A DNA stretch of 22,246 bases from a virus. Below are positions 1,177-16,605 of this stretch, piece after piece. The notes under the pieces were generated by a model, which ran no database searches, was not told the DNA's origin, and was given only the letters and a program-made list of their open reading frames with translations. The DNA lies in the IMG/VR virus record IMGVR_UViG_3300033980_000231, positions 1-22,246 of that record. One strand, 5' to 3'. The translations under genes were made by a program, and so were the position numbers. The first letter of the stretch is position 1. Every line of letters begins with the position of its first letter.

Positions 1177-1403
1177 AGCTTCACAAAAAGGCGCTCGATG
1201 CCCTTTTCCTTCACGAAGGTGGTGAAGTCCAACGCGTAGTTGGCAATCGTTGCAAAGGCCAGCATGTGCGCCAGTTGGGCAGCTTCATAGCCCGAGCAGT
1301 TTTCAGGAATCGTGATGCGATGCATGACACCATCAATCTCAACATCAATGGGGCCAATTGGATGCTGCTTAGGAACTTCAGCGGATGTTTGGGTGTCGCT
1401 CAA
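1173..1403 (-). CDS. Small hypothetical protein, TTG start (76 aa)
   Basis: Unknown function. The start codon is TTG at 1403. The choice is supported by a strong ribosome binding site on the minus strand, AAGGAG followed by seven bases (complement of 1404-1416). The alternative ATG in that spacer is immediately followed by TAA. The gene lies partly inside the 3' end of the HTH gene (26-bp overlap) and overlaps the next gene as ATGA. The protein is acidic and soluble: a short beta-like segment (DVEIDGVMHRITIP) is followed by helices (YEAAQLAHMLAFATIANYAL). No membrane segment, HTH or cysteine cluster is apparent. The weak TTG start may keep levels low relative to the regulator upstream. Confidence 0.55.
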   Translation of the reverse strand: MSDTQTSAEVPKQHPIGPIDVEIDGVMHRITIPENCSGYEAAQLAHMLAFATIANYALDFTTFVKEKGIERLFVKL

Positions 1404-1596
1404 TTACATACTCCTTCATGATTTGTTTACGGGAAATATTGCCCCGGTTGTCGATCACGCTCATCAAGAGCAGTAACCGCCAAAAGGGCATGCGATCGTG
1501 TTTGCAGTAGTAGTGGACCGTTGAAGGCGCAACCCCTAACACCCTGGCTGCAGCCCTGACGCCACCGACTGCTTCAATAAGGTCTCTCGTGTTCAT
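1378..1596 (-). CDS. Cro/CI-type helix-turn-helix regulator (72 aa)
   Basis: The first 50 residues hold a classic phage repressor HTH: LIEAVGGVRAAARVLGV, turn, APSTVHYYC recognition helix, then KHDRMPFWRLLLLM. Length and layout fit Cro/YdaS-like single-domain regulators. There is no C-terminal peptidase (LexA/CI) domain, so SOS autocleavage is not expected from this protein alone. It is the first gene of the leftward operon and faces the early rightward operon across a control region with four AACCCAGGGTT palindromes, its obvious candidate operators. The ATG at 1596 has no clear Shine-Dalgarno. Whether it acts as immunity repressor or as Cro is unresolved, and no second regulator gene faces it on the other strand. 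Confidence 0.75.
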   Translation of the reverse strand: MNTRDLIEAVGGVRAAARVLGVAPSTVHYYCKHDRMPFWRLLLLMSVIDNRGNISRKQIMKEYVIERHPNIR

Positions 1597-1622
1597 GGTG
1601 TTAGAGTAATCGAACGGTAACC

Positions 1623-1629: not shown

Positions 1630-1640
1630 AACCCAGGGTG
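1630..1640. promoter_or_regulatory. Operator-like box O1
   Basis: AACCCAGGGTG is a one-mismatch copy of the palindrome AACCCAGGGTT. Its centre (1635) is 29 bp from the centre of the next box. It lies directly beside the leftward -10 candidate. Confidence 0.55.
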
Positions 1641-1658
1641 AACGGGGTGTACACCTGT

Positions 1659-1669
1659 AACCCAGGGTT
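1659..1669. promoter_or_regulatory. Operator-like box O2
   Basis: AACCCAGGGTT is a perfect inverted repeat (AACCC-A-GGGTT). The flanks GT and GCA are also shared with other copies. It is part of the 36-bp unit repeated 90 bp downstream. Confidence 0.65.
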
Positions 1670-1705
1670 GCACGATGGTTTCGGGTTTTCATAGGAGAAA
1701 TGGCC

Positions 1706-1720
1706 GTAACCCAGGGTTAC
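1706..1720. promoter_or_regulatory. Operator-like box O3
   Basis: GTAACCCAGGGTTAC is a perfect 15-bp palindrome, the most symmetric of the four boxes. Its centre (1713) lies 49 bp from O2 and 41 bp from O4. Confidence 0.65.
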
Positions 1721-1748
1721 ACAAGGGGTGAACAGGGCGCACACCCGT

Positions 1749-1759
1749 AACCCAGGGTT
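1749..1759. promoter_or_regulatory. Operator-like box O4
   Basis: AACCCAGGGTT, perfect inverted repeat, ends 10 bp before the TTGACA hexamer at 1770. A protein bound here could contact or block RNA polymerase at the rightward promoter. Confidence 0.65.
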
Positions 1760-1769
1760 GCGATATTGG

Positions 1770-1798
1770 TTGACACAGTGTTCGATACATGAAACACT
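1770..1798 (+). promoter_or_regulatory. Candidate early rightward promoter
   Basis: A perfect TTGACA at 1770-1775 is followed 17 bases later by AACACT (1793-1798), a poor -10, so the exact promoter is uncertain. An inverted repeat AGTGTT-N10-AACACT (1777-1798) covers the same stretch, and ACACAGTGT (1773-1781) is itself symmetric. A weak -10 that needs activation or is repressed would suit a switch promoter. Confidence 0.4.
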
Positions 1799-1828: not shown

Positions 1829-1996
1829 ATGGAAAGAAACGATGAATGGCAGTTGATGATGCAAGAGCGCGAGCAAATGACCGAGGAAGCTTTTACCCGT
1901 GCCCGGTTGGGCATGGCCACTGAAAACGATTGGAAATGGCTTGCAAACGAACTTGGATTAGATCTTTACAAAAGGAAAGCAAATGTTGATTTCTGA
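1829..1996 (+). CDS. Small acidic early protein (55 aa)
   Basis: This short ORF starts MERNDEWQLMMQEREQMTEE and ends GLDLYKRKANVDF. The central segment (EEAFTRARLGMATENDWKWL) resembles small early phage proteins with a '...G.ATEEDW...' core, judged from memory only. It is charged, helical and soluble. It is the first gene after the divergent control region. Its 3' end overlaps the start of the SSB-like gene by 14 bp and carries that gene's ribosome binding site (AGGA at 1973-1976). The ATG at 1829 has only a weak GGA upstream. An in-frame ATG pair ten codons in is an alternative start. Function unknown. Confidence 0.55.
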   Translation: MERNDEWQLMMQEREQMTEEAFTRARLGMATENDWKWLANELGLDLYKRKANVDF

Positions 1997-13044: not shown

Positions 13045-16000
13045 TTACTTACCCTTTTTGAGGTAGTCGAGTGGAGACTTATGCGCTGGGGGTGGCAGGT
13101 CCTTTTCCTTGGTGGACCTGGCCCGTGCGCGGATCTCATGCATCATCTTGTAGAGTTTATCGGTTCCTGCCTTCGTTGAGCCATTTCCGAGTGCTGAAAC
13201 CACATCGGCTGGGAAAACAAACTCACCATCAGCTAGCCATGCAGGAATGTCATCGGACTGACCATCACCATCACCAGCCACATGCTTGCCATCGCGGAAG
13301 TCTTCGCGTGAGCCACCAGCACGGAACATAAACTGAGGGTTCATGGCACCGCCGGTGGCTTTTAAGGGTTCGACATAGCCACCTTCAGCGTACCCGCGAT
13401 TAGTCAGTCCCAGGATGTCATCGATCGATGTTTCCTGGCCATAAGTGTAGGTGGGCGTCTCAGGTTGCGGTTGTGGCAAACCCAATCGTTGTGATAGCAC
13501 GGCTGCGAGCATAGGGTCAATCGAGTTCATCTCTTCAATCCTTTGTTTCATGGCTGCCAGAGGATCAATCTGTCTTTCTTGCAGCACTTTTGATTCAAGC
13601 ATCTTGCCTTGCAAGCGTGCAATCTCTGGTCCTGTGATGGGGCCTGCCTGTGGCGATGCTGGCACTCCAGCCCTTGGCGTGGTAGTTGATGGTGGTGTCG
13701 TAACCACGGGTGGGGGCGGTGGCGGCGGTGGTGGTGGTGGTGGTGGAGGAGGTGGAGGAGGTGGAGGAGGTGGCGTCCCACTAATGCCAGAAAAGCCGCT
13801 GACGCCTGAGACGCCAGAAATAGTGCTTATGCCCGAGACGCCCGAGACGCCCGAGACGCCTGAGATGCCGCTGATACCTGAGATGCCAGAGATGCCAGAG
13901 ATGCCGCTTACCCCAGATACGCCACTGACGCCTGATACGCCACTAATTCCAGATACCCCTGAAACACCAGAAACACCTGATACCCCAGACACCCCGGATA
14001 CTCCAGAAACTCCAGAAACTCCAGAAACTCCAGATACTCCTGAAGTGCCAGACTTTTCCGTGCCAGACACGCCTGACAATCCTGACACTCCAGACACGCC
14101 TGAAATACCAGACTTTTCCGTACCAGATGTACCTGACAACCCTGATTTGCCATCACCTGATACGCCTGACAATCCAGGCTTTTCACCTTGCTGCGTGCCA
14201 AGCGTAATGTCAGTGGCTAATGGTTGATCGGTGCCACCTCCACCACCTGGAGTACCACCACCAGGTTCGCCGCCCCCTCCATCACCACCCCCTGGCGCAT
14301 TGCCACCAAGGGCTGCTTGTGCTGCGGCCAATTGTGCTGCTGCAGTGATGTCGTCTTGGACGGAAGTTGATGCTGCCGTTTGTGCTTCAGTTACCTGACG
14401 GTTAACCTCAGCAAGCATTCGAGTGATTTCATCGCGAGCATCATCTGGCAACTCAGGATCATCAAGGATAATTTCAATCTGATCTCTCAGGCCGCTTAAC
14501 TGATCAAAGCCAAGCACAGCAATATCGCCAACGCCACCACTGGCACCACCAAATAAGGCTTGGTAAGCCGCATCAGGGTCTTCAGTGCCAAGACCGAGAA
14601 TGCCGCCCAATGTCCTTAGCGTATCTTGTGCTGCTGGCGTTGAAGCTGTGATGTCAGTGCCTGCGCCACTTACAAGGCCCTGATTATTTGTTATAACTTC
14701 ATCTGAAGGCGCCCCAAACATGCCAGTCAAAATATCAGTTGCTTGCTGCGAGTCAAAAATGCCGTTTGTCACCATCCAGTCGTGGATTTGCTCTATTGAA
14801 TACCCAGAATTTCTAAATAATTGAACCGCGTCAGATAAAGTGGCAGGCTCTTTATTTGTAAACAATTGATTCATTGAAGACACCTGATTAGGGTCTCCAG
14901 CGCCGCCAGTGATTGTGTCATTGCCACTAGCGCCGATCGTTGTATCGCTGACATTTATCGTGCTTCCTGGACCCTCCCGATAAAGATATGGGTCAAATAT
15001 GCTGCCACCAACGCCTTGGCCTGTAATGCGAGGATCAATTGCACTTGCAGCCTCAAAGGCTTCATCAACTGACGCGCCTGCTTGTATGGCGCGCGTATAT
15101 GCGTCGGCTGCCAACGATGAATTGTCTGTTGGCTTAGGCACATTTGTGAGCTTGTTAGCCGCATTGCCAAACCCTGCAAGTGAACTCATCATGCCGTTAA
15201 CATCGCCGCGCTCAAATGCCTGAACTAGCCTTGCACCTTGTGCGGCAAGCCTTGCTTCAGGACTATTTGTTAACTGGGCACCAGCCATGGCAGCGGCTGC
15301 ATAATCGCCTCTGTTAAGTGCTTCAACAACTCTTGCGGCATTTACGGCGTCACCTACTTTAACGCCGCCAATGTCCATGCCAGCAATCTCTCTTCCGTAA
15401 CTCGTACCCATCAACGATGTCGCAATCGCCAAGGGATTTTTGCTGTCAATCGCTTTATACAGATTTGCTGCTTGTTGTACTTCCGTAAATCCACCGACGC
15501 CTGCGACAGAGGCAACAGCGCCAGCTATATCGCCCTTTTGGGCTGCTCGCGCTGCAGTGTAAATTTGAGCAGGAACTTGCCACGGACCTGGAACCATAGC
15601 AAGCATGGACGCAACCATATCGACTGGCTCAAGACCAGTGATTTTGGTGCCCGTATAGCGTTTTGCATCACCAACAGGAACTAGATCATTGCCTTCGGCC
15701 CGATAAAGCTGGGACATTCGAGCGCGAGGGCCTGCAACATCCTTAGCCTCGCCCGTGGCCCCAGATAGCAAGAAAAACGCATTGCCTGATGCAATATCTT
15801 GGGGCGTAATTTGATCTGCAGTTACTTGTTGTAATTGCCCGTTGACCAGCTTAAAAGCATTTGCGCTGGCATCAGTATGCCCTTGGACTGCATTGGCAAT
15901 AATTGGATTTTGTTGCAACAAATAATCTAAAGCAGTCGCTGGGACTGATCTCGTCTCTGCGGCAGTTCCCTCGCCACCCGTGTCAGTGACTTGTACAGTG

Positions 16001-16605
16001 CCAAAGGGTGTACTCGGATCAGCTTGAGAAAGGCTTCCAAACCCACTGGTAAGCACCCTGCCAGGCCTAAATAGCTCTGGAAAAATCTGGTCGTAAGACT
16101 TGCCAGTTGCGCGCTCAATATCTTCTTGAGATACGCCCCACTTTTTAGCTTCAGCAAGAGCCGCAACTTCGGTTGGATTGTTAGCCAAATAATTCAGAAT
16201 GTTCTGATTCATGGCCTCAAGGCCGATGCCACCCTGACCAATTGCAGAACGATAAGCGGTTGATCCAATAGGCGCTAAGTTTCCCGTACCTGAAGGCGTT
16301 AGGCTTACATCAGCGGTTGGTGTCAGTTGATTTGATGCCACACTAAGTGGTGATGCTGCAGTTGGCAGTGCGCCAGTTGCTGGCGCTGTACTCGTTGTCG
16401 GTAATGCGCCAGGGTAGTATTGAGCAAGTGACTTGCCTGTAGCCCTTTGAATGTCTTCATCCGATACGCCGAACTGCGACATGGCAGCACGCGTGGCTTC
16501 TTCCGTGGGCGTACCCGCAAAAAACTTGCGAATGTTCTCATTCATGGCATCTAAGCCAATGCCACCTTCACCCGTTGCATATTGATAGGCGGTTGATGTG
16601 CTCAT
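13045..16605 (-). CDS. Giant repetitive virion protein with Gly-x-Ser repeats and polyproline (1186 aa)
   Basis: The largest gene. N-terminal: two copies of a ~62-residue domain (about 4-66 and 115-177; both with GGIGL-(D/E)-AMN-x-N and ATGKS) joined by a Thr/Ser/Pro linker. Residues ~310-760 hold helical domains. Then come a Gly-rich linker (~766-794) and ~45 Gly-hydrophobic-Ser triplets (~808-943), followed by exactly 22 prolines (945-966). The C-terminal domain contains YAEGGYVEP and [20 protein letters not shown] then [11 protein letters not shown] (~1115-1145), a motif common at the ends of large phage tail or internal proteins. The likely role is a long tail-associated or ejected protein in which the triplet rod and proline hinge act as a spacer. 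The start overlaps the previous gene as ATGA. Confidence 0.7.
13708..13773 (-). repeat. Run of 22 consecutive proline codons
   Basis: All 22 codons are CCN (mixed CCA, CCC, CCG, CCT) and the run follows directly on the Gly-x-Ser repeats. Runs like this stall ribosomes unless EF-P (or a paralogue) assists. The mixed codons argue that the amino-acid run, not a DNA microsatellite alone, is maintained. The plus strand reads as a G-rich track of GGT/GGA/GGC units. Confidence 0.9.
13777..14185 (-). repeat. Collagen-like Gly-x-Ser triplet repeat region
   Basis: About 45 triplets of Gly-(Val/Ile/Leu/Thr/Phe)-Ser, encoded by a 9-base unit, interrupted by three short Glu/Asp-Lys-Ser inserts (for example GTEKSG). 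Exact 9-bp tandem copies occur at about 13835-13862, 13885-13910 and 14003-14035, the mark of recent slippage. Glycine every third residue resembles phage collagen-like fibres, but there is almost no proline in the triplets, so a polyglycine-II or beta arrangement is equally possible. Confidence 0.85.

Follow-up and report, generated by a model that had tools for sequence, protein, structure and literature searches.

In the Cro/OR regions of lambdoid phages (Cro of Xfaso1, N15, P22 and PY54), one of two divergent early operons starts with the gene for a Cro-fold protein, and palindromic operators of about 16-20 bp overlap the promoters. The Rco switch of pLS20 uses overlapping divergent promoters and DNA looping (PMC4207663). 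Limnohabitans phage DC33 (PQ492659) also has a divergent early region, in which the first leftward gene is small and Cro/YdaS-like, and it shares one related rightward gene with the locus described here. Its record, PQ492659.1, is 39 kb long and contains tailed-phage-like genes under the taxonomy line Inoviridae, which is probably a submission error.

The DNA analyzed here, referred to as the window, is the 22,246-base IMG/VR virus record IMGVR_UViG_3300033980_000231. Positions 1597-1800 would control the divergent early operons of a freshwater tailed phage. The general plan of this region, namely Cro, divergent early promoters, and palindromic operators, is well known. Unlike the lambdoid regions, however, the window has no CI gene between the promoters, and a second, unrelated class of palindrome (11-15 bp) is added beside each promoter. 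Boxes of this class also vary in presence among close relatives. As in the pLS20 switch, the promoters of the short forms of the region (described below) are close enough to compete, and looping could occur in the long forms between their two separated operators and repeated sites. The regulator is different, the setting is a phage, and both looping and the binder are hypothetical here. The DC33 region differs in lacking the box, AACCCAGGGTT, and its 284-bp intergenic region is unrelated.

The leftward operon begins with a cro-like gene (1378-1596, minus strand) encoding a 72-aa helix-turn-helix protein. The product gave weak HMM matches to YdaS and P22 Cro, and its PHROG is annotated as a transcriptional regulator. 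The AlphaFold2 model (pLDDT 77) has a small all-helical Cro fold with a helix-turn-helix. Its best PDB matches are the Cro proteins of Xfaso1, N15, and P22, with a high match probability and Foldseek E values of 0.03-0.2. Judged from this modeled fold, the product is a Cro-type protein, although the fold match comes without strong statistics. The rightward operon begins with a 55-aa ORF (1829-1996, plus strand; function not assigned) that has homologues in all relatives. In a 55.8-kb relative (G006), the cro operon runs on to DUF1376/DnaT-like, DnaB-like, and terminase genes, and the rightward operon includes a recombination-type nuclease. The window also encodes a large structural protein (13048-16605, minus strand) in which a long proline run comes after a collagen-like GVSGVS repeat. 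No relative of the window's Cro was found in GTDB genomes, which were searched for a host. The original prediction spoke of a divergent phage switch. A lysis-lysogeny switch is unsupported because 14 related records (up to 56.6 kb, though possibly fragments) contain no match to Phage_integrase (PF00589) or Peptidase_S24, that is, neither a tyrosine integrase nor an S24 repressor.

The conserved cro promoter on the minus strand consists of TTGC[A/G]T (1631-1626; TTGCAT in the window), a spacer of 17 bp, and TACTCT (1608-1603). The -35 lies in the conserved string GGGTTGC[A/G]T, which is also present in most short forms, as ATGCAACC. The -10 is a consensus-based assignment and is conserved together with TTGCNT at 17 bp in most relatives. 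A cro transcript from this -10 would begin at or beside the ATG at 1596 (1594-1608, minus strand), and from this promoter position the cro mRNA would be leaderless. In L002, L004, and L006, a 9-bp tandem duplication (CATGGTGTT) at the cro start repeats the start codon, and the ORF call of cro in L006 begins MNTMNTRD. The -35 of the rightward early operon, TTGACA (1770-1775, plus strand), is conserved in all relatives compared. It has no good -10, and a promoter scan found no full sigma-70 site for the rightward promoter. The two -35 hexamers are 138 bp apart in the window, whereas they are 15-17 bp apart in the short forms, where two polymerases would collide.

A motif of about 20 bp is found at both promoters. 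In every relative compared, GTGTTCGATACATGAAACAC lies between the rightward -35 and its gene, and CCGTTCGATTACTCTAACAC-like sites are present on the minus strand at the cro promoter. The window has only two strong sites, namely CCGTTCGATTACTCTAACAC at 1598-1617 (minus strand; 25.8 bits), which is kept in short and long forms, and GTGTTCGATACATGAAACAC at 1778-1797 (plus strand; 26.3 bits), which is near-invariant in all relatives. The next independent site scores 9 bits, with a matrix built from family sites that include the window's own two. Since the motif is common to all relatives, with and without boxes, its sites are likelier Cro operators than the boxes are.

The second palindrome class forms an array of four boxes (no strand assigned), all of them intergenic between the leftward gene at 1378-1596 and the rightward gene starting at 1829. 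The array had been predicted to consist of three exact copies of AACCCAGGGTT and one single-mismatch copy, AACCCAGGGTG, within 130 bp. A count in the record confirmed these copies, their center spacings of 29, 49, and 41 bp, and the end of the last box 10 bp ahead of TTGACA (1770). Box O1 (AACCCAGGGTG, 1630-1640) had been placed beside a leftward -10, CATAAT, which is not conserved. Given the TTGC[A/G]T-17-TACTCT promoter of cro, O1 overlaps the conserved leftward -35 instead. O2 (AACCCAGGGTT, 1659-1669) is also perfect in L007 and L039. O3 (AACCCAGGGTT, 1708-1718) is the center of a perfect 15-bp palindrome, GTAACCCAGGGTTAC (1706-1720), and is degenerate in L039 and L007. O4 (AACCCAGGGTT, 1749-1759) is centered 16 bp ahead of the first T of the rightward -35.

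When up to two mismatches were allowed, 16 box matches were counted against a shuffle mean of 5.3, and none of 100 shuffles reached 16. None of 400 Markov sequences contained an 11-bp odd palindrome that occurs three times within 130 bp. The exact box occurs nowhere in the 22,246-base record other than at 1659, 1708, and 1749. The sole other one-mismatch match, CACCCAGGGTT at 2075, is coding and recurs downstream, at a similar position, in several relatives without boxes. A search for the palindrome over the genome and its relatives, which had been proposed as a test of the array, showed that the boxes are not scattered but confined to the divergent promoter region. The copies within the window are not independent of each other, because an 89% direct repeat of a 36-bp module (1636-1671 and 1726-1761, plus strand) connects them. 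The box extended by its flanking bases, GYAACCCAGGGTTRC, is a better repeat unit than the 11-mer. In the middle of the array (1695-1748), a Shine-Dalgarno-like AGGAGAA is followed by a 16-codon ORF (MAVTQGYTRGEQGAHP). L007 retains the length and stop of this ORF with different codons, and type D loci (see below) such as L137 have TCATAGGAGAA on the opposite strand ahead of a 9-codon ORF. Both arrangements could be due to chance.

Relatives were collected by searching with the Cro protein, its profile, the first rightward gene, and the conserved promoter sequence, which returned about 40 contigs. Most of them have no box and have 85-88 bp between the cro start codon and the end of the rightward operator. 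Long forms, which have boxes and about 120 bp or more of extra DNA, alternate with short forms among the relatives regardless of Cro type. Cro has three C-terminal types, of 72, 62, and 67 aa, and for each of them there are loci with boxes and loci without. Apart from the window, the same six contigs were retrieved by each of two long-form-specific patterns. No long form was found in GTDB genomes (exact pattern) or in plasmids and named phages (exact-pattern or BLAST searches). The Manatee Spring records, Acinetobacter vB_AbaSI_1, and Limnohabitans DC33, all of which have related early genes, have no boxes in the stretches read. Judging from these sequences, the boxes are not needed for basic function, since short forms with the same Cro and operators occur without them.

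One clear case of recombination at the long form was found by sequence comparison. The window and L039 are 63% identical in cro and 93% identical in the intergenic region, over 171 bp without gaps. L039 in turn shares 94% identity with the box-less L067 both in cro and in the downstream 600 bp. At least one exchange of the long form has therefore taken place independently of the flanks. A mobile palindromic element of the REP or MITE type was ruled out, as the element occupies a single site in viral contigs. No phage gene co-occurs with the boxes in the genomes compared, so this approach gave no candidate binder, and a cognate phage gene that tracks the boxes was rejected.

Boxes at the same places are also found in a distant clade, type D, whose Cro is about 50% identical to that of the window. 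Nine further contigs were retrieved with a pattern consisting of a box 6-16 bp upstream of TTGAC[A/T] and then TTCGA. Because the O4 box was part of the pattern, type D phages without boxes would have escaped the search. The pattern allowed 11 spacings, and the flanking G and C of O4, its spacing, and O1 were not part of it. The distance from the box to TTGACA is nevertheless 10 bp throughout, except in L135 (11 bp). From the center of O4 to the first T of the rightward -35, the distance is 16 bp in the window and type D, and 17 bp in L135. The flanking G and C of O4 are present in most type D sequences. A box at the O1 position is found in seven of the eight type D loci that reach that far (five exact, two with one mismatch).

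The DNA around these two boxes is much less conserved than the boxes themselves. Between the window and type D, 11-12 of 15 positions are identical at O1 versus 3-8 of 20 in the next 20 bp. At O4, 13-15 of 15 are identical, compared with 8-10 of 20 in the preceding 20 bp and 3-5 of 8 in the following gap. L135, in which the footprint is shifted by one base, is the exception to both comparisons. Intergenic lengths vary in type D, and no alignment is possible for the middles of L135, L140, L142, and the L136 group, either among themselves or against the window. Type D genomes of 50-58 kb have at most two exact boxes each, all in the intergenic region. By this alignment evidence, O1 and O4 are a phylogenetic footprint of two promoter-proximal sites, and O2 and O3, which lie outside it, are extra copies of the window's lineage. 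The extra copy O2 was not found in type D. The idea of an insertion unique to the window's lineage was dropped once the outer boxes were seen in the distant clade.

The original prediction held that one protein could control both directions and that this protein is the product of 1378-1596. The first part agrees with the confinement of the boxes to the divergent promoter region and with the fixed places of O1 and O4 beside both promoters, which are kept in the distant clade. The second part is not supported, as L001 and L003 have no boxes and their Cro proteins are 93% and 92% identical to that of the window, with the same recognition helix. The description of the boxes as operators of the 1378-1596 repressor is thus only partly supported by the sequence comparisons. 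Because Cro proteins this similar are found both at loci with boxes and at loci lacking them, the boxes would be a layer for a regulator other than Cro.

In our best explanation, to which we give about an even chance of being right, Cro operators form a base layer and the boxes are an optional second class of operators for another regulator. The small Cro-type protein most likely represses both operons through one operator of about 20 bp per promoter, and this layer would be common to the whole phage family. The long forms would place O1 on the cro -35 and O4 16 bp upstream of the rightward -35. A putative dimeric regulator, probably a phage or host protein other than Cro, may bind O1 and O4 and adjust both promoters. 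The surroundings of O4 probably arose together with those of O2 by the 36-bp duplication. The element also shifts the -35 hexamers from the colliding spacing of the short forms to that of the window. Any binding event, the direction of regulation, and the identity of the binder are inferred in this model.

The boxes may instead have no protein of their own. In this explanation, a repeat-rich spacer has grown by fold-back and tandem duplication from the cro -35 (GGGTTGCAT), and any effect would come from promoter separation. The 36-bp duplication is consistent with such growth, as are an inverted copy of the cro -35 region in L039 and a single-strand folding z of -5 in the window. Decay is also seen. 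In L007, the only diverged array of the window's own lineage, 44 of 60 box positions are kept versus 56 of 76 in the DNA between (p = 1), and box conservation above background was rejected for this array. L006 has lost half of O1 and has indels in its repeat units. Against a spacer of this kind, the distant clade keeps the sequence, symmetry, and spacing of the outer boxes while everything between them is replaced. Moreover, the box has not spread elsewhere in the genomes, and the element is found at this site only. We consider this origin of the boxes unlikely, though still to be taken seriously. An RNA element was also considered and rejected: no Rfam family matched at the gathering score, and the region lies upstream of both promoters as well. 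One match to a plant miRNA family (E 0.025), far below the threshold of that family, was taken as chance. Concerted change of the two 36-bp modules was set aside because it rests on three columns only.

The middle of the long forms contains a further repeat, the iteron TGTNCRCC, on the minus strand. In the window, it is found at 1646-1653 (TGTACACC), 1727-1734 (TGTTCACC), and 1736-1743 (TGTGCGCC). It is spaced by about 10-13 bp, and all long forms tested but L140 have more copies of it in their middle than shuffles do. The motif was read from some of the sequences later counted, which makes the shuffle counts somewhat flattering, but the enrichment also holds in loci outside the motif choice (L137-L139 and L007). 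The distances from O1 to O4 showed no significant helical phase, with p between 0.05 and 0.28 according to the helical repeat assumed.

TGTNCRCC resembles TGTTCG, one half of the common operator, and this resemblance bears on another possibility, that the boxes are auxiliary operators of Cro itself. Cro would then assemble a single nucleoprotein structure across both promoters by occupying the 20-bp sites, the boxes, and the half-site repeats. Besides cro, no DNA-binding gene was seen at every readable locus of the family, and O1 and O4 adjoin the Cro operators. TGTTCG (with at most one mismatch) is enriched in seven of the twelve long forms (L135, L136-L139, L142, and L006). However, it is not enriched in the window, L002, L007, L039, or L140, the box shares no half-site with the conserved operator, and relatives with an identical recognition helix have no box. 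Cro of phage PY54 binds a single 16-bp site (PMC4488713), which also counts against auxiliary operators. We regard this role of Cro as improbable. Both the repeat-grown spacer and auxiliary Cro binding remain live rivals of the second operator class, in which the phased TGTNCRCC repeats between the boxes would perhaps assist the regulator and may be weak Cro half-sites. A replication origin or partition site, made up of the boxes and iterons and bound by a phage initiator (the DUF1376 gene of the leftward operon), is very improbable. The 10-12 bp repeats flanked by palindromes do look iteron-like, and DUF1376/DnaT-like and DnaB-like genes belong to the same operon. However, the region is missing from sisters whose replication genes are the same, and type D genomes keep the boxes despite very different DUF1376 versions.

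In the open-access literature searched, the AACCCAGGGTT palindrome was not found as a phage regulatory site; its letters occur in seven papers, none of which, as far as titles and abstracts tell, deals with phage regulation. We also found no description in the open literature searched of a paired box with fixed promoter spacing, Cro-independent exchange, and phased repeats. We tentatively propose, as a possibility somewhat short of even, that the locus holds an early-control element of freshwater phages. It would consist of a pair of AACCCAGGGTT operators at fixed promoter distances with helically phased repeats between them, be read by a putative regulator, and be exchanged as a unit independently of Cro. 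Sister phages would then differ in whether their operons compete or are jointly controlled. If this is true, an entire second layer of operators can be acquired or lost by the early switch of a phage with no change in the repressor or the main operators. The role of the layer could be tested by comparing natural sister phages, and the box would be a precise bait for a regulator of freshwater phages or their hosts.
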